From NCBI RefSeq assembly GCF_004114975.1, contig NZ_CP030051.1, positions 868,001 to 932,000 on the forward strand: a DNA stretch of 64,000 nucleotides. The letters are read 5' to 3'. Positions 2,383 to 12,590 of the stretch are shown here, piece by piece (within the stretch, counting starts at the first letter, position 1; every line of letters starts with the position of its first letter). A program made the translations under genes and the position numbers. Origin of the DNA: Bradyrhizobium guangdongense (GTDB taxonomy: Bacteria; Pseudomonadota; Alphaproteobacteria; Rhizobiales; Xanthobacteraceae). A model generated the notes under the pieces. The model had not been told where the DNA came from. It did not search any database and saw only the letters and a list, made by a program, of their open reading frames with translations.

Positions 2383-3171
2383 TCAAATTCCACGCTGTTT
2401 CAACCGGCTCACGTAGGGAACGCCTTTGATCCAAAGCCGCAGCGCCTCCCAATGGATCGCGGCGATCACCTTGATGGTAAGAAAGGGCAGACCGAAGAAT
2501 GCCGCCAGGAGACGGGGGCCGGTCAGCCGGCGCCGCCGTCCGAAAAAGGCGGCCGCAAACATGACACCCTGTTCGTTGCTCTGCAGGATCCTGACCCGCA
2601 CATGGCGCGCCGGCGGGGAGATGCTGAAGCGGTAATGCATCTCCATCTCCATGAAAGGCGAGACGTAGAACTGCTTCGCCTGGTTCTGACGTATCGCCCG
2701 TTCACCCGGTGCCTCTTGCACCGGCAGGACGTAGGAATGCATCTCTCCGAAGGTGTTGCGCACCTCGTAGATCAACAACGCGAGCTCGCCGGGCGCGCGA
2801 TAGCAAAAGTAGATCGAGAGCGGGTTGAACACGTAGCCCAGCACCCGCGGATAGCACAGAAGCAGAACCCGGCCTCCGGACAGGTCGATGCCGCGCTCGG
2901 CTGCCAGCTGCCGCACGTAGTGGCTCAGCTTCGCGCCTTTGCGGTCGCCGTGATCGCGCTCGTGGAAGCTGAAGATCGCGACGCGATTGACGGCGAACAA
3001 GCGCGACTGCCGATCCGCCTCGTCCAGTCGGTCCAAATCGATGAGAAGGTTCATCACCTCGTAGCTGAACCTATGCTGCACCGGCCGCCAGCGCGCGTGC
3101 ATCACCTTTCCCCTGTAGAGCACGACCGGAGCGGGTGGATCTCTGTCTCTGGGCGGTCTCGACCCGAACAT
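2383..3171 (-). CDS. DUF1365 domain-containing protein
   Basis: The 262-residue protein matches the DUF1365 family: YRGKVMHARWRPVQHRFSY near the start, then RVLGYVFNPLSIYFCY and the YVSPFMEM region. The frame is open far upstream, but the ATG at 3171, just after the stop of the FAD oxidoreductase gene (TAA at 3177-3179), gives the normal family start. The two genes are therefore tightly coupled. DUF1365 proteins regularly follow such FAD oxidoreductases, often with a cyclopropane-synthase-like methyltransferase, and a role in modifying membrane fatty acids is suspected. The methyltransferase gene is missing here. Confidence 0.88.
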   Translation of the reverse strand: MFGSRPPRDRDPPAPVVLYRGKVMHARWRPVQHRFSYEVMNLLIDLDRLDEADRQSRLFAVNRVAIFSFHERDHGDRKGAKLSHYVRQLAAERGIDLSGGRVLLLCYPRVLGYVFNPLSIYFCYRAPGELALLIYEVRNTFGEMHSYVLPVQEAPGERAIRQNQAKQFYVSPFMEMEMHYRFSISPPARHVRVRILQSNEQGVMFAAAFFGRRRRLTGPRLLAAFFGLPFLTIKVIAAIHWEALRLWIKGVPYVSRLKQRGI

Positions 3172-3176
3172 CGACG

Positions 3177-4490
3177 TTACTCGGCTGCTTGCGCCAGCAC
3201 TGACATGGACTGGCGCCAGGGCGGCTCGCAGCCCATGGCCTCTGCTATCCGGATCCCGGACCGCAGACCGTCTTCGTGGAAGCCGTAGCCCGTCCACGCT
3301 CCACAGAACCACGTTCGACGACGGCCTTGAATCGCAGGCAGCCGTCGTTGGGCTACGAATGCAGCCATATCGTAGAGCGGGTGAGCGAAGCTGAATTTTG
3401 CAAAAGTCAGGTCGGCGGCCGGCTCGCGCGGCGGGTTGAGGCTGACGAACAGCGGCTTGCGATCGTCGATGCCCTGCAGCCGGTTCATCCAATAGGTCAC
3501 GGCGACGTCGTTCTCGACTGGTGTTTGCCGCGGCCATTGCAGGAAGTTCCAGGATGCCCATGCCTGGCGGCGCTTTGGCATCAGACTTGGATCGCGATGC
3601 AGATAGACGGCGTTGGGGCTGTAGCGGATTGCGCCGAGAATGGACTTCTCCGCCGCGTTCGCGTCGGTGAGCGCCGCCAGGGCCTGGTCGCTGTGGCAGG
3701 CCATCACGACCGCATCGTAGCTTTCCACGCCGCCATGACTGTCGCGGATCGTCACGCCATGCTCCGTTCGGGTGACTGAAGTGACGGCACAGCCTAGCCG
3801 GATCACGTCCTTGAACATAGCGGTAAGCTTGTCGACATAGCGCCGGCTGCCACCCTCGACGGTGAGCCAGCGCGGGCGGCCCAGGTGCAGGAGCCTGTGA
3901 TTGTCGAAGAAGGTGACGAAGTTCTCCGCGGGAAACGACAGAATATCCGCCGGCGTGGACGACCAGATGGCGGCCCCCATCGGTCCGAGATATCTGGAGA
4001 ACAGGTGCGCGCCAAACGATTCCTTTTGCAGATATTCGCCGAGCGTCATCTTCTCGAGCCGGCCGGCGCGCAAGTCGGCGACGCTCTGCCTGTTGAATCG
4101 CACGACTTCGGCCAGCATGCGAAAGTGTGACGGCGAGGTGAGGTTGCTCGGTTGGGCGAACAGACCGCGTGCGGTTTGCAAGATGCCTTCGCCGCCCCCG
4201 CGCCATTCGAAGCGGCCGTGATCGGCGGACATCGCAAAGCTCATGCACGTCTCGACGGTCTTCACCCCCAGATGCGTGAAAAGGGATGTCAGCTCGGGGT
4301 AATTCAACTCGTTAAACACGATGAAGCCGACGTCGACGTCGATGGCTTCGCCATCATGGTCGATCCGAACGGTATGACTATGCCCGCCGGGTCGCAGCTC
4401 GCGTTCGTACACCGTCACAGCGTAGCGCTTCGACAGGAGCCAGGCAGCCGCATTGCCCGCAATCCCCGTCCCGATCACTGCCAAGCGCAT
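3177..4490 (-). CDS. FAD/NAD(P)-binding oxidoreductase of the amine-oxidase type
   Basis: This 437-residue protein opens with a dinucleotide-binding motif, VIGTGIAGNAAAWLL, followed by YERELRPGGHSHTV, as in flavin amine oxidases and phytoene-desaturase-like enzymes. A second FAD contact, TWFCGAWTGYGFHEDGL, lies near residue 395. It is the first gene of a leftward pair with DUF1365, and a sigma-E-like promoter lies 120-150 bp upstream. In Rhodobacter sphaeroides, related gene groups belong to the sigma-E/ChrR singlet-oxygen regulon and act on unsaturated membrane fatty acids. That role is an inference here; the reaction is not identifiable from sequence alone. Confidence 0.88.
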   Translation of the reverse strand: MRLAVIGTGIAGNAAAWLLSKRYAVTVYERELRPGGHSHTVRIDHDGEAIDVDVGFIVFNELNYPELTSLFTHLGVKTVETCMSFAMSADHGRFEWRGGGEGILQTARGLFAQPSNLTSPSHFRMLAEVVRFNRQSVADLRAGRLEKMTLGEYLQKESFGAHLFSRYLGPMGAAIWSSTPADILSFPAENFVTFFDNHRLLHLGRPRWLTVEGGSRRYVDKLTAMFKDVIRLGCAVTSVTRTEHGVTIRDSHGGVESYDAVVMACHSDQALAALTDANAAEKSILGAIRYSPNAVYLHRDPSLMPKRRQAWASWNFLQWPRQTPVENDVAVTYWMNRLQGIDDRKPLFVSLNPPREPAADLTFAKFSFAHPLYDMAAFVAQRRLPAIQGRRRTWFCGAWTGYGFHEDGLRSGIRIAEAMGCEPPWRQSMSVLAQAAE

Positions 4491-4610: not shown

Positions 4611-4638
4611 GGAACGCTGGCGGAGGCGGCTTGGATCA
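4611..4638 (-). promoter_or_regulatory. sigma-E-like promoter of the FAD oxidoreductase-DUF1365 unit
   Basis: On the minus strand TGATCC (4638-4633) is followed after 16 bases by CGTTCC (4616-4611). The same element with identical spacing precedes rpoE, the second ECF sigma gene and the DUF2177 gene. The leader to the ATG at 4490 would be about 115 bases. Confidence 0.65.
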
Positions 4639-4670
4639 CCGTGCCCCTCGGGCTGGCTTGGAGCCGACGA

Positions 4671-4698
4671 TGAAACCGGTGCATAGGTTAGACGTATC
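4671..4698 (+). promoter_or_regulatory. weak sigma-E-like promoter candidate before DUF1295
   Basis: TGAAAC (4671-4676), 16 bases, then CGTATC (4693-4698) is an imperfect match to the TGATCC-N16-CGTT element, about 25 bases before the DUF1295 start. Position and spacing fit, but the half-sites carry three mismatches in all, so this is tentative. Confidence 0.3.
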
Positions 4699-4722
4699 AA
4701 CGGAAAACAGCGCCGGTGAAGG

Positions 4723-5529
4723 ATGCTTGTCCCGTACTTTCAGACCGTGGCCGGCATTGCTCTGGCTCTTTCCGCGTTGATGGCGCTGGCCTGGATCGTC
4801 CAACAGCGCACGGGCAATTCCGGCTGGGTGGACGCCATCTGGTCCTATTCGGTCGGCTTGGTCGGCGCCGTTGTCGCCCTATGGCCTCTCGACGATGGGT
4901 CGTCGGCTCGCCGGGTTCTCGTGGCAGGGCTGGTACTGTGCTGGTCGGCAAGACTGGGGACGCACATTGCGCGTCGTTCCGCCGCAGGTCTCGATGATCC
5001 GCGTTATGCCAACTACGCGCGCGAATGGGGCTCCGCAGCGCCACGCCGGATGTTCTTTTTCCTGCAATCCCAGGCGCTGGCTTCGGTCCCGCTGCCGTTT
5101 TCCATTTTTCTCGCCGCGCACGCTCCGGGCCCCGGCCTGGGACTGCAGGACTATGCCGGAGCGCTCATCATGCTGGCAGCGGTCATCGGCGAAGCCATCG
5201 CCGACGAGCAATTGCGTCGCTTCAAGCGCTCGCATCCCGAAGGCGGTCTGATTTGCGATACCGGGGTCTGGCGCTGGTCACGCCATCCGAACTATTTCTT
5301 CGAGTGGCTGGGATGGCTGGCCTACCCTGTCATTGCGCTGTCGCCTCAATACCCCTGGGGGTGGGCCAGCATCGCCGCGCCAGCCATCATGTACTGGATC
5401 CTCGTGAAGGTGACCGGCATCCCGCCGCTCGAGAAACAGATGCTGCGATCGCGAGGCGAGCGCTATCGCGCGTACCAGGCCAGAACCAACGCGTTCTTCC
5501 CGTGGCCGCCCAGACAGCCGCTGCAGTGA
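4723..5529 (+). CDS. DUF1295 protein, steroid 5-alpha-reductase-like membrane protein
   Basis: The 268-residue protein has about six membrane segments and the C-terminal signature of DUF1295/steroid-5-alpha-reductase-like proteins: RWSRHPNYFFEWLGW at about residue 183 and RGERYRAYQARTNAFFPW at the end. Known relatives reduce double bonds using NADPH, but most bacterial members are uncharacterised. It is read divergently from the FAD oxidoreductase unit and is close to other genes of the presumed sigma-E regulon, so lipid modification under oxidative stress is a reasonable guess. The ATG at 4723 follows a short GAAGG, which supports the start. Confidence 0.85.
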   Translation: MLVPYFQTVAGIALALSALMALAWIVQQRTGNSGWVDAIWSYSVGLVGAVVALWPLDDGSSARRVLVAGLVLCWSARLGTHIARRSAAGLDDPRYANYAREWGSAAPRRMFFFLQSQALASVPLPFSIFLAAHAPGPGLGLQDYAGALIMLAAVIGEAIADEQLRRFKRSHPEGGLICDTGVWRWSRHPNYFFEWLGWLAYPVIALSPQYPWGWASIAAPAIMYWILVKVTGIPPLEKQMLRSRGERYRAYQARTNAFFPWPPRQPLQ

Positions 5530-5590
5530 TCGGCGCTCCGAGGCCAGGCGATATGCTGGCGAGCGGCAAGAGCGAATGCGCCGGGTAGGG

Positions 5591-5618
5591 TGATCCGTTT
5601 CGACCTGCGGGCCGTTAA
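5591..5618 (+). promoter_or_regulatory. sigma-E-like promoter of DUF2177-tspO
   Basis: TGATCC (5591-5596), 16 bases, CGTTAA (5613-5618), 45 bases before the DUF2177 ATG at 5663. It matches the element found before rpoE-chrR in both half-sites and spacing, apart from the last two bases. Confidence 0.65.
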
Positions 5619-5662
5619 ACCCTCGTCAGGCTGGCGACTGAGAGCGCGGAAGGGAACGCCGT

Positions 5663-6064
5663 ATGAATTTGGTCTTCACGTATCTCACGATCGCGATCAC
5701 CTTCGTCGGTCTCGACATGATCTGGCTCAGGACCATGGTCGAAAGGCTCTATCGGCCGGTGCTCGGCGACATGTTGCGGTCCGAACCCAATCTGGCCGCT
5801 GCCGCGGTGTTCTATATGGCCTATCCCGCCGGGCTGATCTGGTTCGCGGTGCTGCCCGCGCAGCAGGACGGTGGCGCGCTGCGCGCGTTCGCTTCCGGTG
5901 CGCTGCTGGGCTGCTTCACCTACGCGACCTACGATCTGACCAATCAAGCAACGCTGCGAAGCTGGTCGACCGGCTTGTCGGTGGCGGACATCTGCTGGGG
6001 ATCGGTTCTCGCCGGCGTCAGCGCCTGGACTGGCTTTCTCGTCGTTCAAAGGATGACGTCCTGA
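5663..6064 (+). CDS. DUF2177 family membrane protein
   Basis: This 133-residue protein has four predicted membrane helices and the DUF2177 features LDMIWLR near the N terminus, FYMAYPAGLIWFAV, and CFTYATYDLTNQATL with the acidic TYDLTN in helix three. The family has no proven function and often occurs beside ECF sigma factors, DUF1295 and cyclopropane-synthase-like genes. It is the first gene of a two-gene unit with tspO; its stop ends at 6064 and the next ATG begins at 6067. A sigma-E-like promoter lies directly upstream. Confidence 0.87.
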   Translation: MNLVFTYLTIAITFVGLDMIWLRTMVERLYRPVLGDMLRSEPNLAAAAVFYMAYPAGLIWFAVLPAQQDGGALRAFASGALLGCFTYATYDLTNQATLRSWSTGLSVADICWGSVLAGVSAWTGFLVVQRMTS

Positions 6065-6066
6065 TC

Positions 6067-6561
6067 ATGAGCGCCACAGCCAAGCCGCCGATGGAGCAAG
6101 GCCGCAAAAGCGGGAATTGGTATCACCGCGCCGCGTTTCTCTGTCTCGTTCCCGCCGCGGGGCTTCTGATCGGTGTGCTCAACCGGCCCGGGGCCTGGTA
6201 TGCCGCACTGACCAAACCGCCCTTCAATCCGCCGGATGCCGTCTTCGCCCCGGTTTGGACCATCCTGTTCCTGCTCATTGCCGTCGCGGGATATCGCACT
6301 TTCGAGGCAGGGCCGCGCGGCGCCGCCATGAAGATATGGATCGTTCAGATGATCCTGAACTTCGCCTGGTCGCCGATCTTCTTTTCGCTTCATCGCATGG
6401 ACATCGCACTCGGCGTGATCATTGCGATGTTCGTCGCCATCGTCGCATTCGTCCGGCGGCAGTGGAGCGCAGACCGGCTGGCGGCGTTGCTTTTCCTGCC
6501 CTATGCCGGCTGGGTCGCGTTCGCGATGCTGCTGAATCTCTCGCTTCTTCTGCTCAACTAG
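6067..6561 (+). CDS. tspO: TspO/MBR family tryptophan-rich sensory protein
   Basis: The 164-residue five-helix protein has the TspO/MBR signature: NRPGAWYAALTKPPFNPP, then FAPVWTILFLLIAVAGYR, and NFAWSPIFFSLHRMDIAL. TspO proteins bind porphyrins and can degrade protoporphyrin IX. In Rhodobacter sphaeroides TspO is an outer-membrane regulator of photosynthesis genes that responds to oxygen and light. It follows DUF2177 with a two-base gap, so the two are translated from one message. Co-transcription behind a sigma-E-like promoter fits a role in photo-oxidative stress, since free porphyrins generate singlet oxygen; that link is inferred. Confidence 0.92.
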   Translation: MSATAKPPMEQGRKSGNWYHRAAFLCLVPAAGLLIGVLNRPGAWYAALTKPPFNPPDAVFAPVWTILFLLIAVAGYRTFEAGPRGAAMKIWIVQMILNFAWSPIFFSLHRMDIALGVIIAMFVAIVAFVRRQWSADRLAALLFLPYAGWVAFAMLLNLSLLLLN

Positions 6562-6619
6562 ATGAATCGCGCCATTTGCGAGAAAGCTGGCGTTGGAGGT
6601 GCCTCTCTCTCTCGTGGCT

Positions 6620-7384
6620 TCAACCGGAGGCGAGCCGTCCACCCAGGTTCGCGATGGCAGGCAGAGACATGAACGCTGGCCTCGCGAAGTAGTAGCCCTG
6701 GAAGAGCGTGATCCCCGCAGCCCTTAACACGGTCAGTTCAGCCTCGCTTTCAACGCCCTCCGCAAGTATTGTGATCCCAAGCTGCCGAGCGATCGACGCG
6801 ATACCAGACACGATCACCTGCTTGGACGAACTGAGGTGGATGTCTCTGAGAAGCTCCATGTCAATCTTGATCAGATCGGGTTGTAAGCGCGCAAGAAGGT
6901 TCAGCCCCGCGTAGCCTGCCCCAAAGTCGTCCAGCGCCGTCAAAAATCCGAGCTTCTTGTAACTGGCAACGATGTTTTCCACGTGTGCGGGATCCTTCAT
7001 CCGCTCGTTCTCGGTGAATTCGAACATCAAGTTGTGAGGAGGGAAGTTGGCTCTTTTGGCTGCCTCAAGCGATTTCTGGATGCACGCCCGCGGCTCATAG
7101 ACGGCGTTCGGCATGAAGTTGATGGAAAGCCGTGCCGCCGGGTCGTGAAACAGCTTTCCCGCCGTCTCGATCGCCATCACGCGAGCAGCCTGATCGAACC
7201 GATAAAGTTGATCATCGGTCAGCTGACTCAGAACGCTGTGCGCACTCTCCCCATTCGGACCGCGCACGAGTGCTTCGTAACCCCAAATTCGATCCTGCGC
7301 GACCTCGACGATCGGCTGGAAAGCCATTTTGAAGGCGAACCGTAATTCGGTTCCATTTGCACATCCCAAGCACCTTGCAGCCAT
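6620..7384 (-). CDS. EAL-domain cyclic-di-GMP phosphodiesterase
   Basis: The 254-residue protein is a stand-alone EAL domain. The motifs needed for c-di-GMP hydrolysis are visible: YEALVRG (E37), LSINFMPNAVY, FEFTENE, LDDFGAGYAGL, LIKID and LAEGVE. I chose the ATG at 7384 over a TTG at 7396 because GGGGGAAGG precedes it. The short N terminus has a CxxC (C5, C8), which might bind metal or respond to redox state; no sensor domain is present. An EcfG-type promoter candidate lies about 220 bases upstream. Confidence 0.9.
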   Translation of the reverse strand: MAARCLGCANGTELRFAFKMAFQPIVEVAQDRIWGYEALVRGPNGESAHSVLSQLTDDQLYRFDQAARVMAIETAGKLFHDPAARLSINFMPNAVYEPRACIQKSLEAAKRANFPPHNLMFEFTENERMKDPAHVENIVASYKKLGFLTALDDFGAGYAGLNLLARLQPDLIKIDMELLRDIHLSSSKQVIVSGIASIARQLGITILAEGVESEAELTVLRAAGITLFQGYYFARPAFMSLPAIANLGGRLASG

Positions 7385-7743
7385 GCCTTCCCCCAATGCT
7401 CAATCGAAAGACAATAGGAAGTAGCGGTTAAGGAACGACTTGCGTGGTGACCCGACCCGGCCGTGACGTATGGCGACCGCGTAGCTCGGACAGCTGGGCC
7501 TTCGCGAGTGTTCCAAAGTGAACAGTTGGGGATGCTGAAGGCGTGCGCCGGGGGGTTTCTCAACTGAGAGCTCGTGCCGATGACTCAAGGACTCCTTCGC
7601 CAAACGGTGGCTGAGATCGACGCGTTCCGGTTGAGAGCACCGTGGAACTTGGAACGATATTTGGGCCATCTGATTGGCACGTTGGTCCACCTCAAGCTGA
7701 GGACCGGCAGTTCCTGGAAAGCGCATTGATCAGGGAGGACACA
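7385..7743. other. intergenic region, 359 bases
   Basis: No convincing gene is seen on either strand. It contains the general-stress-type promoter candidate at 7603-7628 (minus strand) and, at its right end, a leader for the small protein at 7744. The frames that are open here lack plausible protein composition or ribosome sites. Confidence 0.5.
7603..7628 (-). promoter_or_regulatory. EcfG-type general stress promoter candidate
   Basis: On the minus strand GGAAC (7628-7624) is followed after 17 bases by CGTT (7606-7603), the consensus known for EcfG sigma factors of the PhyR-NepR general stress response in alphaproteobacteria. The next minus-strand gene is the EAL phosphodiesterase, which would have a leader of about 215 bases. 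Confidence 0.4.
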
Positions 7744-7932
7744 ATGAACGACGAGCGAAAATCATCAAAAGCGGGAGAGCGGGCCGCAGAAGGCTTGCGC
7801 CAAGCAGCTTCCAAGGAAGAAGCAAAAAACGAGAGCAAGATGGGGCACGATCTGGCTAAGGGCGCTGATCGTTTCGAGGAGCGCTCCAAAAGCTCGGATG
7901 GAAAAAGCGCAGGCGAGAAGCAGAAAGACTAA
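7744..7932 (+). CDS. small hydrophilic hypothetical protein
   Basis: This 62-residue protein is almost entirely charged and polar: rich in Lys, Glu, Ser and Ala, with no hydrophobic core and no cysteine. It is probably unfolded or helical in isolation, resembling small hydrophilic stress proteins in composition only. The ATG at 7744 follows AGGGAGGACACA, a good ribosome site, and fits better than the upstream open frame. I recognise no family. Its neighbours include other small stress-type genes, so a role in stress is possible. Confidence 0.6.
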   Translation: MNDERKSSKAGERAAEGLRQAASKEEAKNESKMGHDLAKGADRFEERSKSSDGKSAGEKQKD

Positions 7933-8124
7933 ATCCACAGCGGACCCGTCGCGGCCTCCCGGCACGAGGTTTCCAAAACGACCGCGTGCCTTCACGTACG
8001 AGGCGAAGGCGCGTCTCGTTGCTCGTACCTAAGAGGGGCGGCGAGACACCTCCAGGGACTCCGACCGAGGCCCTGCACCTTTCCTCATTTGATGTCTGCT
8101 TCTGGCCTGCAAGGTAAGCCGCAG

Positions 8125-8214
8125 TCATCCAGAGGTTTTTTGATGCGCGTCTGCGATAGTTTGCCCGATGCGCCACAATACTCCCGTCGGATCAATAACC
8201 ACGAAATCCTGCAT
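8125..8214 (-). CDS. possible 29-residue peptide or remnant of a larger gene
   Basis: The frame begins with ATG at 8214, seven bases after GAGGAGAA (8229-8222), and encodes MQDFVVIDPTGVLWRIGQTI plus nine more residues. The segment VIDPTGVLWRIGQ resembles the last strand of VOC/glyoxalase-fold proteins, where DP-G-x-x-W-x-I is common. No matching N-terminal part is visible upstream, so it may be the leftover end of a decayed gene or a genuine small protein. The ribosome site is the only strong argument for translation. Confidence 0.3.
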   Translation of the reverse strand: MQDFVVIDPTGVLWRIGQTIADAHQKTSG

Positions 8215-8409
8215 TGCCGAATTCTCCTCGTTTCGGGGTCGCCACCGCGTCTGGAGGCTGGCAGCTTCATTGGGTGATTTTTGGTTGGGATGTGCGTTGC
8301 AGCTTGTGCGCGGAAATTGTTAGGCGTCGAGATGCAAGACCGGCTGTGTGTTATTGGCTTTAGGCTACGAGCGAATGACAGCTATCGGGAAGAACTGGCA
8401 AAAACCAGA

Positions 8410-8434
8410 GGAACGACGAAACGCGGATCGGGTT
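8410..8434 (+). promoter_or_regulatory. weak EcfG-type promoter candidate
   Basis: GGAAC (8410-8414), 16 bases, then GGTT (8431-8434): one mismatch to the GGAAC-N16/17-CGTT consensus. It lies 23 bases before the ATG at 8458, a suitable distance for a short leader. Confidence 0.3.
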
Positions 8435-8457
8435 GATCCATCACCGAGGATCGTTCG

Positions 8458-8673
8458 ATGGACAGAGCTTCGATCTATGACGAACTGAGCCGAGTTGAGC
8501 GAGAGGTGGTTGCAGGAGAGCGCCAACTGGCAGAACAGGAGCGGCTGGTTCTCGACTTGAAACGGGAAGGTCAGAATACTTCCGGCCCTGAAAGGGAACT
8601 GGAAAGGCTGCGTGAACGCCAGCGCCTGCGCGATCAAGACCGCCAAAGACTGCTCTCCCTCCTGCAGCCCTGA
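8458..8673 (+). CDS. small coiled-coil hypothetical protein
   Basis: The 71-residue protein is one long amphipathic helix by appearance, with heptad-like spacing of Leu and Val between charged residues from about residue 8 to 68 (VEREVV, ERLVLDLKRE, ELERLRERQRLRDQDRQRLL). It has no signal peptide or membrane segment, so it is probably cytoplasmic and oligomeric. I recognise no named family. The start at 8458 is the only ATG in good position. The gene is alone on its strand between intergenic gaps; a weak general-stress promoter candidate precedes it. Confidence 0.6.
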   Translation: MDRASIYDELSRVEREVVAGERQLAEQERLVLDLKREGQNTSGPERELERLRERQRLRDQDRQRLLSLLQP

Positions 8674-8916
8674 CTCACAGCGAAAGCATTGCCTCGGGTG
8701 AAGGCCGGTGAAGAGGACCGGATCCGGCTTGAGCGGCCTTCGTCAATCGACCGCGCACGCCGTCGAGTGCGGCCTTTGGGTTCGGAAGGCAATCAGAATA
8801 TTCGGCAAATAATCGCCGATCACAGGGTGATGCGGCATTCCGCGTCTCTGCGCACTAGCAACCAATTCGAATCCTGCTTGTTGTCGCCGGCACAATCACT
8901 TGCAGGAGACAAAGAA

Positions 8917-9237
8917 ATGTCACGTATAACTTTGCTGGCCGCAACCCTGTTGCTGCTCGCGTCGGCGCCCGCGGGCGCCCAGTCGCAGCCGGCGCAAAGC
9001 GGGCCTGGCAACAATGCCATCAACAGCTCCGATAAGAACAATGCGAACGCTCCCGTCGCGGGCCGCAACAGCTTCACCGAGGGCCAGGCGAAATCGCGGA
9101 TCGAGGAGGCGGGATATTCCAACGTCTCCGGCCTGCAGAAGGACAACGAAGGCGTCTGGCGCGGCAAGGCCGACAAGGCCGGCACCAAGACAGACGTCAG
9201 CATTGACTTCCAGGGCAAGGTCAATTCCACGAAATAA
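8917..9237 (+). CDS. secreted PepSY-like small protein
   Basis: The 106-residue protein starts at the ATG at 8917, after CAGGAGAC. Residues 1-21 form a signal peptide ending in APAGAQ. A polar Asn/Ser/Gln-rich linker follows, then a PepSY-like fold at about residues 52-104: FTEGQAKSRIEEAGYSNVSG, GVWRGKA, TDVSIDFQGKV. PepSY domains are often protease-inhibitor-like modules in the periplasm. It lies 12 bases before the gene at 9250, so the two are probably one unit that ends at the terminator at 9901. Confidence 0.72.
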   Translation: MSRITLLAATLLLLASAPAGAQSQPAQSGPGNNAINSSDKNNANAPVAGRNSFTEGQAKSRIEEAGYSNVSGLQKDNEGVWRGKADKAGTKTDVSIDFQGKVNSTK

Positions 9238-9249
9238 GGAGCGGATAGC

Positions 9250-9876
9250 ATGACGACCACCATTTCTCGTCTTTACGACAATTATTCCGACGCCGAGCGG
9301 GCCGTCACCCGGCTCGAGAGCGCCGGCGTGCCGCACTCCGACATCAGCATCGTCGCCAACAATTCCGACAATTGGTACGGATCACGGAGCGGTAAAGTCG
9401 ACCGTGACCGCGACGGCGTCGACGATCGTGCTGAAGGCGCCGGTGCGGGTGCCGGCATCGGCGCCGGCATCGGCGGCGCGGCGGGCCTTCTCGCTGGCTT
9501 GGGTCTCCTGGCCATTCCGGGTCTCGGTCCGGTCGTGGCTGCGGGATGGCTCGCCTCCACGGCTGCCGGTGCGGCCGCTGGCGCTGCCACAGGCGGTATC
9601 GTCGGCGCACTCACCCAAGCCGGCGTCTCGAAGGAAGACGCTTCGCGCTACGCGGAAGGCGTTCGCCGCGGTGGCACGCTCGTCACCGCGAAGGTGCCCG
9701 ACAACGATCGCACGCGTCTCGATGCCCTTCTCCATGAGCGGTCCGTTGACCTCCAGCAGCGCAGTTCGGCTTGGCAGAAGTCCGGCTGGACCGACTTCGA
9801 TGCCGCGAGCCCGCCGTTGTCTCCGGAGGATATCGGGCGCGAGCGCGAGCTTTACGGCGCCGGAGCGCGGCGCTAG
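9250..9876 (+). CDS. general stress protein of the glycine-zipper (17M-like) type
   Basis: This 208-residue protein begins with a ferredoxin-like fold, ISRLYDNYSDAERAVTRLESAG and then GVPHSDISIVAN, as in heat-induced stress proteins of the YflT/GSP17M kind. The centre (about residues 62-120) is a Gly/Ala-rich hydrophobic stretch with glycine-zipper repeats that may insert into a membrane. A second half-fold follows: GVSKEDASRYAEGVRRGGTLVTAKV. It is the last gene before a strong terminator. The biochemical role is unknown; association with general stress is family knowledge. Confidence 0.78.
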   Translation: MTTTISRLYDNYSDAERAVTRLESAGVPHSDISIVANNSDNWYGSRSGKVDRDRDGVDDRAEGAGAGAGIGAGIGGAAGLLAGLGLLAIPGLGPVVAAGWLASTAAGAAAGAATGGIVGALTQAGVSKEDASRYAEGVRRGGTLVTAKVPDNDRTRLDALLHERSVDLQQRSSAWQKSGWTDFDAASPPLSPEDIGRERELYGAGARR

Positions 9877-9900
9877 CTCTCCGTCGGTCTCGACAAGACA

Positions 9901-9927
9901 AAGGCCCCGTGCAGCGGGGCCTTTTTT
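9901..9927 (+). terminator. intrinsic terminator after the stress protein gene
   Basis: A 9-bp stem, AAGGCCCCG with CGGGGCCTT around a five-base loop, runs directly into a T-run ending at 9927. It ends the rightward unit of 8917-9876. Confidence 0.9.
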
Positions 9928-9979
9928 CGGGACACTCCCGCTTTCCCACTGCCGTCGGCGGGGGCTGCCGCCGGCGTCG

Positions 9980-10303
9980 TCATGGATGCAGAGGTTTCCC
10001 AAGCTCACCCAATGCCTCCCTGGTTTCCGCGATCTTCTCGCATAGCAACGTGAAGGCCGTCTGCATTCGGCCGTTGGCATCGTGGTCCAGCAATAGCGAT
10101 GACGTCTCGACCAGCCTGTCGCCCAAATGCTCCATCACGGTGAGCAGGTGATGCAAGCCATCCGCAGGCTGCTCGATCGCAATGCGTTCGATCTCTCGCA
10201 CGATCTCCTCGAGCCTGATGACCGCGGACACAAGACTGTCGTCGTGCCTGCGCAGTGGAAATTCGATGATCTCGGCGGTCAAGGCCGGGGTTTCCCTCAG
10301 CAT
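9980..10303 (-). CDS. small protein coupled to an ECF sigma gene
   Basis: The 107-residue protein has no membrane segment, no signal peptide and no cysteine pair for zinc, so it is not a usual anti-sigma factor. It appears all-helical (LVSAVIRLEEIVREIERIAI; LHHLLTVMEHLGDRLVETSSLLLDHD; FTLLCEKIAETREALGEL). Its ATG overlaps the stop of the sigma gene (TGATG at 10301-10305), so it is translated by coupling. This suggests a protein that binds or accompanies the sigma factor, but I recognise no family. Confidence 0.65.
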   Translation of the reverse strand: MLRETPALTAEIIEFPLRRHDDSLVSAVIRLEEIVREIERIAIEQPADGLHHLLTVMEHLGDRLVETSSLLLDHDANGRMQTAFTLLCEKIAETREALGELGKPLHP

Positions 10304-10887
10304 CAGGCGGTGCCGGATGCGGCGAGGCAGTCCTTGCGGACTGTCAGGAGAGCCCGGTGCAGCCAGGTCTTTATCGTCCCCACCGGCACGCCGAAGCGCC
10401 GTGACAGATTGGCTCGGCTCTCGCCTTCGAGATAGGCGAGCGCCACCAGCGCGCGGCGATCTTCCGGCAAACGAGCCAGTGCGCCAAAGGCGATGGGTTC
10501 GGCGCGGGCGTAGTCGAGCTCGTCGCTCGCTGATGGATTCTCGGCGGCCGCAATCGACAGCGCCTCATCGAACGCGTCAGTCGGCAATCTTCTGACGCGC
10601 AGATGATCGATCGCGGTATTGCGCACGATCGCGGAAATCCATGCCATCGCCGGAGCGCGCTCGGCATTGAACCGGGAGGCGTTGCGCCAGATCTTCAGAT
10701 AGCTCTCTTGCAGGACGTCTTCGATATCGTGCGGCGGTACGCCGACGGCGAGCGCGGTCCTGCGCAGTCTGCCGCGCGTTATCATGTGCAGCGCCGAGAA
10801 AGCGCGTGCGTCCCCGCGTGACACACGCGCGAGCAGTTCGGGCAATCCGTCGCTCTGTGGCTGTGTTGCCCGACGTGAGCAGGCCAT
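10303..10887 (-). CDS. ECF-family RNA polymerase sigma factor
   Basis: The 194-residue protein has region 2 at about residues 30-100 (DIEDVLQESYLKIWRNASRF, AMAWISAIVRNTAIDHLR) and region 4 at about 135-185 (LPEDRRALVALAYLEGESR, VPVGTIKTWLHRAL). It resembles SigK-like ECF sigma factors. Its promoter region carries the same TGATCC-N16-CGTT element as rpoE-chrR, with a short leader of about 20 bases to the ATG at 10887. That implies control by the sigma-E next door, a sigma cascade. No membrane anti-sigma gene is attached, only the overlapping 107-residue protein. Confidence 0.9.
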   Translation of the reverse strand: MACSRRATQPQSDGLPELLARVSRGDARAFSALHMITRGRLRRTALAVGVPPHDIEDVLQESYLKIWRNASRFNAERAPAMAWISAIVRNTAIDHLRVRRLPTDAFDEALSIAAAENPSASDELDYARAEPIAFGALARLPEDRRALVALAYLEGESRANLSRRFGVPVGTIKTWLHRALLTVRKDCLAASGTA

Positions 10888-10913
10888 GTCCCGTCTCCCT
10901 TGCGTTCGGCTTT

Positions 10914-10941
10914 GAAACGCTGGGGGATCGCGGTTGGATCA
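10914..10941 (-). promoter_or_regulatory. sigma-E-like promoter of the second ECF sigma gene
   Basis: On the minus strand TGATCC (10941-10936), 16 bases, CGTTTC (10919-10914). The start codon at 10887 lies 27 bases after the -10 element. Confidence 0.68.
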
Positions 10942-10969
10942 CCCCGGGGAAGAAGGACTGAAGAGGGAT

Positions 10970-11617
10970 CTAAAGCCTCACGAACGGCCCGATCAGCCGG
11001 CCAAGCAGACCGTTCATGCGCAGATCACCTGTCATCGCAACCAGGCAGAGGCACGGGCCTTCGTCGCCGACGATCGGGCGATGATCGACCTCGTCGTCGC
11101 CATAGTCGAAATCGCCAGGACCAAAACGGCCGCCCTCGTGGCTGAAGCTGCCTTCCAGCACGAGCGTCAACTCGGTGCCGGTGTGCGTGTGTTCGAGCAT
11201 GCGCGTGCCCGGCGCGGACCTCAGCAGGAAGGCCCGCGCCTTGCCCGCGCCGGACAGCTCGACCGGCCGCATGCTCAGACCTGGCGCAACGCGCCTTGGC
11301 TTACCGACCCTGTAGTTTCGAAGCGCCGGTGGAACGTCTCGCACCATTCCGAACGTCTCGGTCGAGGGCGGCGCAGCTCTCGGTTTGGGCGCGTCGTCGA
11401 TCCGGGCCAGCACGCGCTCGAATGCATCCGATGCCACCGGCACCGGAGCGACCTCCTCGAGTGCCAAGCCCGCAAGCTGCTCCATCGCGCGCACGAACCG
11501 GGCGCACCCTGCGCATTCTGCGACATGCACCCCCACGACCAGATGGTGGGCCTCTTCCAGCCTGCCGGCGGCAAAGTCGGCCAGAAGATCTTCCGGCGGA
11601 TGATGGCTGATGGTCAT
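10970..11617 (-). CDS. chrR: ChrR-type zinc anti-sigma factor with cupin domain
   Basis: The 215-residue protein has the two-domain ChrR layout. The N-terminal zinc anti-sigma domain shows HHPPEDLLADFAAGRL, then VVGVHVAECAGC, giving the His, His, Cys, Cys zinc ligands near residues 6, 31, 35 and 38. The C-terminal cupin (about residues 100-195) has HTHTGTELTLVLEGSF and later DEVDHRP as probable metal ligands. In Rhodobacter sphaeroides ChrR holds sigma-E inactive until singlet oxygen appears. Its ATG overlaps the rpoE stop by ATGA (11614-11617), so the two are made together. Confidence 0.92.
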   Translation of the reverse strand: MTISHHPPEDLLADFAAGRLEEAHHLVVGVHVAECAGCARFVRAMEQLAGLALEEVAPVPVASDAFERVLARIDDAPKPRAAPPSTETFGMVRDVPPALRNYRVGKPRRVAPGLSMRPVELSGAGKARAFLLRSAPGTRMLEHTHTGTELTLVLEGSFSHEGGRFGPGDFDYGDDEVDHRPIVGDEGPCLCLVAMTGDLRMNGLLGRLIGPFVRL

Positions 11618-12270
11618 GCTTCTTCGTCCAATAGCTCTCTCAGGCGGTTCATCGCCAGCCTGATGCGCGACTTCACCGTTCCCAGCGGAATTCCGAGCAG
11701 GGCAGCGATTTCCGGATGCGGCCTTTCCTCGATGAAGGACAGCCTCACCACCCTGGACTGCTCCGCCGACAATAGCTCGATGGCGGACGTGATCCGGGCA
11801 GCATCCTGAACGCGCGAAAGGACCGCATCGACCGGTTCGGCGGGATCGGGCGTATCCGGCAGCTCGGCAACGCCCCGCACGCGGTCTGCCCGCGCCTTGC
11901 TGCGGAACATGTCGATCCGCAAGTTCCGCGCGATCGTGAAGATCCAGGCCGCGGCTCCCGATGTCGACGGATCGAACTGGCTCGCCTTCCGCCACACGGC
12001 GATCAACGTGCTCTGGGCGATCTCCTCGGCCTCGTCGGCGCTGCATCCGGCCTTCAGCATCAATGCCTTGATGCGAGGCGCGAAATGCTCGAATAGGCCT
12101 TTGAATGCCTCCCTGTCGCCGGAAGAGGCGACGCGTCCGATCAAATCAGCCCAGTCCACCTTCGCCTTCGGCCCTTTGCTCGCACTGGTCGACAGCCGCG
12201 CGACAATTCCGCGAGGCACGCCGGCCCTGGCGCGGATTGGCACAGTTAAAGCTCGGATAGCAGCGACCAT
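11614..12270 (-). CDS. rpoE: ECF sigma factor of the RpoE-ChrR group
   Basis: The 218-residue protein has ECF region 2 (FEHFAPRIKALMLKAG, EEIAQSTLIAVWRKASQFDP, AWIFTIARNLRIDMFR) and region 4 (LSAEQSRVVRLSFIEERPH, IPLGTVKSRIRLAMNRLRELL). It is translated ahead of and overlapping with chrR, the standard arrangement for the singlet-oxygen-responsive sigma-E of photosynthetic and related alphaproteobacteria. A TGATCC-N16-CGTT element 30 bases upstream of the ATG at 12270 indicates autoregulation. The same element precedes three other units in this window. Confidence 0.93.
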   Translation of the reverse strand: MVAAIRALTVPIRARAGVPRGIVARLSTSASKGPKAKVDWADLIGRVASSGDREAFKGLFEHFAPRIKALMLKAGCSADEAEEIAQSTLIAVWRKASQFDPSTSGAAAWIFTIARNLRIDMFRSKARADRVRGVAELPDTPDPAEPVDAVLSRVQDAARITSAIELLSAEQSRVVRLSFIEERPHPEIAALLGIPLGTVKSRIRLAMNRLRELLDEEA

Positions 12271-12590
12271 GGTGGCTCGACAAGCAGCTTCTCGCGTTTG
12301 GAACGTATGGCAGGGGGCGATGGATCACTTGCCCCCGAAAGTTCCCGGGCTTGCCGGAAGGCAGCAAGGCGATTGCCTCTCAATAGACCGGCCCCAGGTT
12401 CGAGCCCCCCTGCGGCCACCATTTCAAGGTCCTGCTGATGCTTGTCGGTTTTTGTTTTGACTGATAGCCGCGCGGCGTTAATGCATAAAATGCACGTCCG
12501 GCGAGCGCGGCGGCGTGGAGCAAGAGGACCTGAGGGGTCAGGAGAGTTGGATTGGTTCTCTCCGGACCCCGACCGCAAACCAGACGGCGC
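12271..12590. other. intergenic region with the rpoE promoter
   Basis: The left end carries the rpoE promoter (12300-12327). I see no gene in the rest, to the stop of the coiled-coil gene at 12591, and no strong terminator. Confidence 0.5.
12300..12327 (-). promoter_or_regulatory. autoregulatory sigma-E promoter of rpoE-chrR
   Basis: On the minus strand TGATCC (12327-12322), 16 bases, CGTTCC (12305-12300); the rpoE ATG follows 30 bases after the -10 element. It is the reference copy for the shared motif because ECF sigma genes of this group control themselves. Confidence 0.72.

Follow-up and report, generated by a model that had tools for sequence, protein, structure and literature searches.

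The described systems closest to the locus considered here are the sigma-E/ChrR pair of Rhodobacter sphaeroides, its counterparts PSPTO_1043 of Pseudomonas syringae and RpoE2-ChrR of Shewanella oneidensis, and the SigK-RskA pair of Mycobacterium tuberculosis. In published work TGATCC-N16-CGTA is the consensus for the sigma-E kind of sigma in P. syringae (PMC5507510), and promoters of the TGATCC/CGTATT type have been mapped in Shewanella (PMC4336711). Here we analyze a stretch of 64,000 nucleotides (64 kb; "the window") from Bradyrhizobium guangdongense (contig NZ_CP030051.1, positions 868,001 to 932,000), in which TGATCC-N16-CGTT precedes an rpoE-chrR pair, the gene for a second extracytoplasmic function (ECF) sigma behind chrR (ECF2 below) and two further transcription units. 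Judged by its sequence, the locus is an ECF11 (sigma-E/ChrR) regulon with a -10 CGTT instead of CGTA, and it probably includes a second tier, in which sigma-E would drive the SigK-like ECF2, and ECF2 in turn promoters of the form GAAAC-N16/17-CGTA. This second tier is what is new; the element and the regulon had been proposed in an earlier reading of the window from its letters alone (the sequence-only reading) and are borne out as sequence predictions.

The locus resembles the R. sphaeroides system in that its sigma and anti-sigma match the solved pair, in the element before rpoE, in the ufaD-ufaO homologues of the predicted regulon (PMC7380195, PMC6852236) and in having a downstream sigma as a target, which is RpoHII there (PMC6852236). 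It differs in that the downstream sigma is a SigK-like ECF sigma and not a heat-shock sigma, in its -10 CGTT, in having DUF2177 and tspO as predicted targets, and in that no reaction centre gene was found. With PSPTO_1043 and the S. oneidensis pair it shares TGATCC and the identical 16-base spacing, whereas the -10 there is CGTA and the accessible parts of those accounts do not mention a second ECF sigma (PMC5507510, PMC4336711).

On the SigK side, M. tuberculosis SigK (4nqw) is, by a small margin, the best solved match of ECF2, whereas RskA was not recognised beside ECF2. The products of mpt70 and mpt83 are fasciclin proteins, and to our knowledge GAAAC-CGTA is not the mycobacterial SigK box. 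In M. tuberculosis SigK controls mpt70 and mpt83 (PMC7509140), and here the GAAAC element is found before fasciclin genes; in R. sphaeroides, moreover, singlet oxygen induces a fasciclin gene that belongs to the RpoE regulon (PMC7074977). R. capsulatus has, in the photo-oxidative role of rpoE-chrR, a sigma and an anti-sigma that resemble SigK/RskA (PMC7074977); there the SigK-like pair replaces sigma-E/ChrR, whereas here a SigK-like sigma without a recognised partner sits behind it. ECF sigmas controlled by transcription alone are already known (PMC8999054). In the open literature searched, as far as accessible, no account was found of a second ECF sigma that sigma-E/ChrR controls in Bradyrhizobium, part of which Dufour 2008 may list, nor of the capture of a SigK-like sigma without a recognised anti-sigma by a ChrR locus.

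The sigma-E/ChrR locus and its promoter element

The sequence-only reading had assigned the rpoE-chrR pair to the sigma-E/ChrR system, and this assignment holds: the best solved match of RpoE is R. sphaeroides SigE (2q1z, E 5e-38; next 4nqw, 5e-20), ChrR matches solved ChrR (2z2s, E 7e-29), and TGATCC-N16 is published for this kind of sigma. ChrR scores 169.6 bits on TIGR02451 against a cut-off of 124.5 and carries HxxxCxxC, as read in its sequence; chrR is co-directional with rpoE, and its start overlaps the rpoE stop. A response of this system to singlet oxygen would follow by analogy with its family.

An exact scan of the window finds precisely four copies of TGATCC-N16-CGTT (Table 1), against 0.16 expected from 100 dinucleotide shuffles, none of which reach four (maximum 2). 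All four lie within 7.7 kb, where the chance expectation is about 0.02. The same four sites had been named before, with intervals that overran CGTT by two bases. When one mismatch is allowed, the window holds 12 elements in total against 4.85 expected; the first 14 kb have no extra N16-CGTT or N16-CGTA site with a one-mismatch -35. The last CGTT base lies 31, 28, 122 and 46 bases from the start codon used of rpoE, ECF2, ufaD and DUF2177, respectively. Over varied spacers, TGATCC-Nk-CGTT occurs in the cluster four times at N16 and once at N12, and in 15 related loci (L086-L099 and L103, 292,515 bases, L089 and L090 being nearly alike) 51 times at k=16 versus 0 to 3 times at each of 18 other k from 8 to 26. 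Identical N16 spacing can be kept as a sign of a regulon, as the sequence-only reading had taken it.

Table 1. Genes and predicted promoter elements of the locus (positions in the window)
Feature	Position	Strand	Basis or remark
ufaO homologue, DUF1365	2383..3171	-	Pfam DUF1365 E 6e-83
ufaD homologue, FAD-dependent enzyme	3177..4490	-	Pfam Amino_oxidase/NAD_binding_8
TGATCC-N16-CGTT before ufaD-ufaO	4613..4638	-	predicted sigma-E type promoter, exact pattern scan
GAAAC-N16-CGTA before DUF1295	4672..4696	+	predicted SigK-like promoter
DUF1295 membrane protein, predicted second-tier target	4723..5529	+	Pfam PF06966 E 2e-62
TGATCC-N16-CGTT before DUF2177-tspO	5591..5616	+	predicted sigma-E type promoter, exact pattern scan
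DUF2177 membrane protein	5663..6064	+	Pfam PF09945 E 1e-41
tspO (TspO/MBR)	6067..6561	+	Pfam PF03073 E 3e-39
Small open reading frame (ORF) overlapping ECF2 end	9980..10303	-	108 homologues; no Pfam/NCBIfam match
ECF2, second ECF sigma, SigK-like, 194 aa	10303..10887	-	tree group; solved match 4nqw; behind chrR
TGATCC-N16-CGTT before ECF2	10916..10941	-	predicted sigma-E type promoter, exact pattern scan
chrR, zinc anti-sigma + cupin domain, 215 aa	10970..11617	-	Pfam Cupin_7; TIGR02451; solved match 2z2s
rpoE, ECF11 sigma, 218 aa	11614..12270	-	Pfam Sigma70_r2/r4_2; solved match 2q1z
TGATCC-N16-CGTT before rpoE-chrR	12302..12327	-	predicted sigma-E type promoter, exact pattern scan

Across Bradyrhizobium relatives the element persists before the same genes while the spacer sequence diverges. 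A search for chrR found it in 61 of 120 genomes (E up to 1e-3), in a number of them via the cupin part only, and 40 stretches around the better ChrR matches, together with the window, were surveyed for upstream elements. The element is present in 19 Bradyrhizobium regions upstream of rpoE (three with TGATCT; L104 is incomplete at this point), exact in all 16 upstream of ECF2 and in 12 upstream of DUF2177, and present in all ten read upstream of ufaD, one with TGATCT. In all six loci in which tspO and DUF2177 are separated (L094-L099), tspO has a TGATCC-N16-CGTT of its own facing it. In other families the site occurs in 12 of 13 rpoE upstream regions, a count that leaves out seven loci whose sigma the query missed. 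Ten of these 12 sites read CGTA and two CGTT, as against CGTT, with T as the fourth base, in the 19 Bradyrhizobium rpoE sites read. Inspection of the sigma alignment by eye yielded no clear candidate residues for this difference. One locus listed under the same genus (L123) shows no element before either rpoE or DUF2177.

ECF2 is a SigK-like sigma without a recognised anti-sigma neighbour

The sequence-only reading had counted the second ECF sigma among the units of the regulon; the tree and alignment place it with SigK-like sigmas and not with ECF11. In a tree of 44 rows, nine SigE rows are split from 35 rows of SigK-like sigmas and ECF2 at 100/100, and a single clade (100/100) unites the ten ECF2 rows, within a group of sigmas most of which have an RskA-type partner. 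As to the -35 helix, the ECF2 rows read T-I-K-T-W and a SigK-like paralogue T-V-K-T-W, against T-V-K-S-R in RpoE. The solved matches are 4nqw (SigK, 1e-15), mycobacterial SigE (4e-14) and R. sphaeroides SigE (1e-13). "SigK-like" refers here to the sequence and tree position of ECF2.

A scan of genome contigs for ECF2 homologues gave 164 loci, 80 of which were kept, 40 at no less than 48% identity and 40 more distant. Among the close ones (38 titled Bradyrhizobium, one bacterium without a genus and one Frankia sp. RB7), chrR lies directly upstream of ECF2 in 40 of 40, and the element precedes ECF2 in 40 of 40 (38 exact, one TGATCT, one CGTA). No RskA-like anti-sigma was found near ECF2 in any of the 40 with two RskA-type queries at E 1e-4; of these loci, L212 breaks off 175 bases beyond its match, and L217 is incomplete. 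Among the more distant homologues, by comparison, an RskA-like gene adjoins the sigma in 34 of 40; of the others, three lie next to a cupin-type anti-sigma encoded on the opposite strand and one next to a ChrR-like gene, and for two none was found. TGATCC-N16-CGTA occurs in 2 of these 40. This survey and the upstream survey share some genomes and are not independent. In the 120 genomes, all 15 ECF2 matches of at least 49% identity, the own genome excluded, adjoin a chrR match, one of them incomplete. The closest named records for ECF2 are Bradyrhizobium, as are those homologues of the small ORF behind it (108 in all) that are shown with an organism name.

Several arrangements were seen beside this general pattern. 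The record titled Frankia sp. RB7 (L214) has the Bradyrhizobium-type chrR-ECF2 arrangement, and its title may be wrong. Two genomes (G036 and G061; L100 and L101) carry a second rpoE-chrR copy with no ECF2 nearby and TGATCC-N16-CGTT before both rpoE and DUF2177. In L123 and L223 the order is RpoE, ChrR, DUF2177 (read in L123), followed by a SigK-like sigma that shares about 40% identity with ECF2; these sigmas fall outside the ECF2 clade, and that of L223 has no TGATCC element before it.

The GAAAC-N16/17-CGTA element

The DUF1295 gene, which lies between the ufaD-ufaO and DUF2177-tspO units, is preceded by GAAAC-N16-CGTA; this element is exact in 8 of 8 aligned loci and present in 19 of 19 loci with DUF1295 inside the ECF2 cluster. 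Fasciclin genes have GAAAC-N16/17-CGTA upstream in 29 of 30 loci, the remaining one being without a readable frame. A study in Azospirillum is said, by its title, to concern a fasciclin protein in photo-oxidative stress. Around 40 SigK-like loci, many of them related Thalassospira, 28 copies of GAAAC-N16/17-CGTA lie outside the sigma gene, in 23 loci (27 coding matches inside the sigma gene being excluded), versus 0 to 4 at other spacers. The element is therefore a good candidate for the promoter motif of SigK/RskA-type systems.

A SigK-like paralogue, 34-38% identical to ECF2, is present in 72 of 72 same-genus genomes searched, the own one included, where an RskA_C protein follows it. The agreement of its -35 helix pattern with that of ECF2 would fit a reading of GAAAC by ECF2, but the paralogue could itself read these elements. 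Elsewhere in the own genome (L038:1095-1330), a CMAS methylase and a divergent gene, which flank DUF1295 in relatives, stand without DUF1295; the GAAAC half remains there, with CATA replacing CGTA, while DUF1295 with an intact element is instead in the sigma-E cluster. In three loci (L136, L137, L138) SigK-like sigma genes stand in divergent pairs, one of them accompanied by an anti-sigma with a ChrR-type cupin (checked by Pfam in L136), and GAAAC-N15 and GAAAC-N17-CGTA lie between the divergent genes.

A proposed two-tier cascade and its alternatives

These features suggest the following order of events. ChrR would keep sigma-E inactive until photo-oxidative or peroxide stress, the signals suggested by the family, frees it. 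Sigma-E would then transcribe the four TGATCC-N16-CGTT units, namely rpoE-chrR itself (autoregulation), ufaD-ufaO (furan fatty acids), DUF2177-tspO, and ECF2 with the small ORF. Given that no anti-sigma was recognised beside ECF2, transcription driven by sigma-E would determine how active it is. ECF2 itself would most likely read GAAAC-N16/17-CGTA, before DUF1295 here and before fasciclin genes elsewhere, which would couple a SigK-type regulon to the sigma-E signal. The predicted regulon here comprises eight genes, counting the small ORF. The sequence-only reading had spoken of one regulon of at least seven genes within 10 kb; the retention of the element before the same genes in relatives upholds its membership, whereas its unity is better replaced by two tiers, because ECF2 does not group with ECF11 and DUF1295 carries another element. 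As to how the arrangement arose, it is about an even call that a SigK-type ECF sigma lost RskA and that in Bradyrhizobium the sigma-E/ChrR locus captured it, its GAAAC promoters joining the sigma-E response. On that account, itself evenly poised, control by an anti-sigma would have given way to control through transcription, driven by a different ECF sigma.

The most serious competitor is a sigma-E/ChrR regulon of a single tier, in which ECF2 is a sigma-E target with other targets of its own, the GAAAC elements belong solely to the paralogue and DUF1295 is a bystander; we consider this a real possibility, if one somewhat short of even. It draws on GAAAC elements before fasciclin and DUF1295 in genomes without ECF2, for which the paralogue, present in every same-genus genome searched and followed by RskA_C in the own genome, would suffice as an explanation. 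The -35 helix pattern and tree group that ECF2 shares with the paralogue speak against it, as does GAAAC before DUF1295 in all 19 loci with that gene inside the ECF2 cluster. Several observations weigh against the two-tier cascade. Of the 29 fasciclin loci with GAAAC, 13 are in genomes without ECF2. The notion that only genomes with ECF2 have GAAAC before DUF1295 failed: among 15 loci read out of 22 returned (7 weak or partial matches were left out), ten carry GAAAC, five of these in genomes without an ECF2 orthologue, two of which (G023, G006) have a homologue 40-46% identical to ECF2. G008 and G026 have ECF2, yet their DUF1295 has TGATCC-N16-CGTA and no GAAAC. Alignment of seven loci gave no conserved GAAAC before the paralogue's own gene. 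As to the identity of ECF2, the name SigK depends on the small margin among solved chains, the SigK model comes second among the NCBIfam models listed and below its cut-off, with only the general ECF superfamily model passing, and the tree contains no mycobacterial SigK. Additionally, the product of the small ORF behind ECF2 might be an anti-sigma that escaped recognition.

It is also conceivable, though unlikely, that ECF2 reads the TGATCC-N16-CGTT of sigma-E and so boosts one regulon, as its position under this element and in a single locus with rpoE might suggest. However, its -35 helix follows the SigK-like pattern and differs from that of RpoE, the two sigmas fall into separate clades, and the element accompanies rpoE-chrR where no ECF2 was found nearby, e.g., in L100-L103. 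There is still less to be said for reading of the elements by EcfG, the general stress sigma, which we hold to be very improbable. Its -10 CGTT matches, and the promoters of Sinorhizobium RpoE2 are GGAAC-N16/17-CGTT-like, one of them being GAAAC-N16-CGTT (PMC6180224); the matching -10 and this GAAAC promoter count against the cascade as well. Yet TGATCC, the -35 here (with TGATCT in a few relatives), is the box of ECF11 sigmas, one element precedes rpoE itself, and the GAAAC elements of DUF1295 and fasciclin genes end in CGTA, not CGTT. Finally, the reading that a G+C-rich motif recurs by chance or through conserved coding sequence, in favor of which stands the near-random number of matches elsewhere in the genome (22 vs ~21), hardly deserves credence for the four cluster sites in view of their clustering, strict spacer and cross-species footprint upstream of genes.

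The element genome-wide and other genes of the regulon

The genome comprises 8.44 Mb in two contigs and holds 36 exact matches to TGATCC-N16-CGTT: the four of the window, ten copies of one repeat and 22 elsewhere, where about 21 would be expected from the window shuffles, scaled; the CGTA version has 12 matches. A whole-genome scan, as the sequence-only reading had advised, thus recovers the four cluster sites, while the other matches are close to chance; therefore, outside such clusters, a match to the pattern is not enough to define a regulon, and these matches were dropped as members, with the exception of an island at 3.44 Mb. The repeat (e.g., L002) carries the element in each of its ten copies, is probably mobile and inflates pattern counts. 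A hemH gene was considered as a remote target (L027/L127) and is not claimed: its site is inside divergent coding sequence, and cross-species identity may therefore be coding conservation.

The 3.44-Mb island (L126:4867-7395) stands out among the genome-wide matches as a second sigma-E island. There TGATCC-N16-CGTA precedes a gene for an MHYT-GGDEF-EAL protein, and a conserved ORF of 110 residues, which had no Pfam match for the frame searched, is preceded by TGATCC-N16-CGTT; these two sites are followed by a fasciclin gene with GAAAC-N17-CGTA. The ORF and its element align without gaps in L094, L095 and L097, except for two bases before the start, and in these three loci the ORF stretch and an EAL-domain gene adjoin rpoE.

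The name ufaD rests on its family and its place before the DUF1365 gene. In R. sphaeroides UfaD (RSP1091) is a methyl-acyl desaturase and UfaO, which contains DUF1365, acts in the furan ring-forming step; UfaD and UfaO make furan fatty acids both there and in R. palustris (PMC7380195). A ufaM partner could not be placed: four CMAS matches exceed the cut-off, and none of the three scanned has the element. TspO/MBR proteins bind porphyrin. An EAL-domain gene adjoins tspO (window 6620-7396), with no TGATCC-N16-CGTT or -CGTA found before it in the window; a 70% identical copy lies about 3 kb from chrR in L100/L101.

Implications

The sigma-E box fixed in 40 of 40 relatives before a sigma without a recognised anti-sigma neighbour makes this locus a compact case in which regulatory rewiring can be tested. 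The own genome yielded no photosynthetic reaction centre gene, and among 18 genomes of the genus searched 14 lack it and 4 have it; tspO is predicted as a sigma-E target in non-phototrophs. For the promoters of SigK/RskA-like systems in Alphaproteobacteria, GAAAC-N16/17-CGTA is a candidate motif. Whereas sigma-E/ChrR and SigK-type systems occur as alternatives in two Rhodobacter species (PMC7074977), they would, if the two-tier cascade is true, be combined here, and the sigma-E response would reach SigK-type genes, DUF1295 and fasciclin, mostly in non-photosynthetic bacteria.

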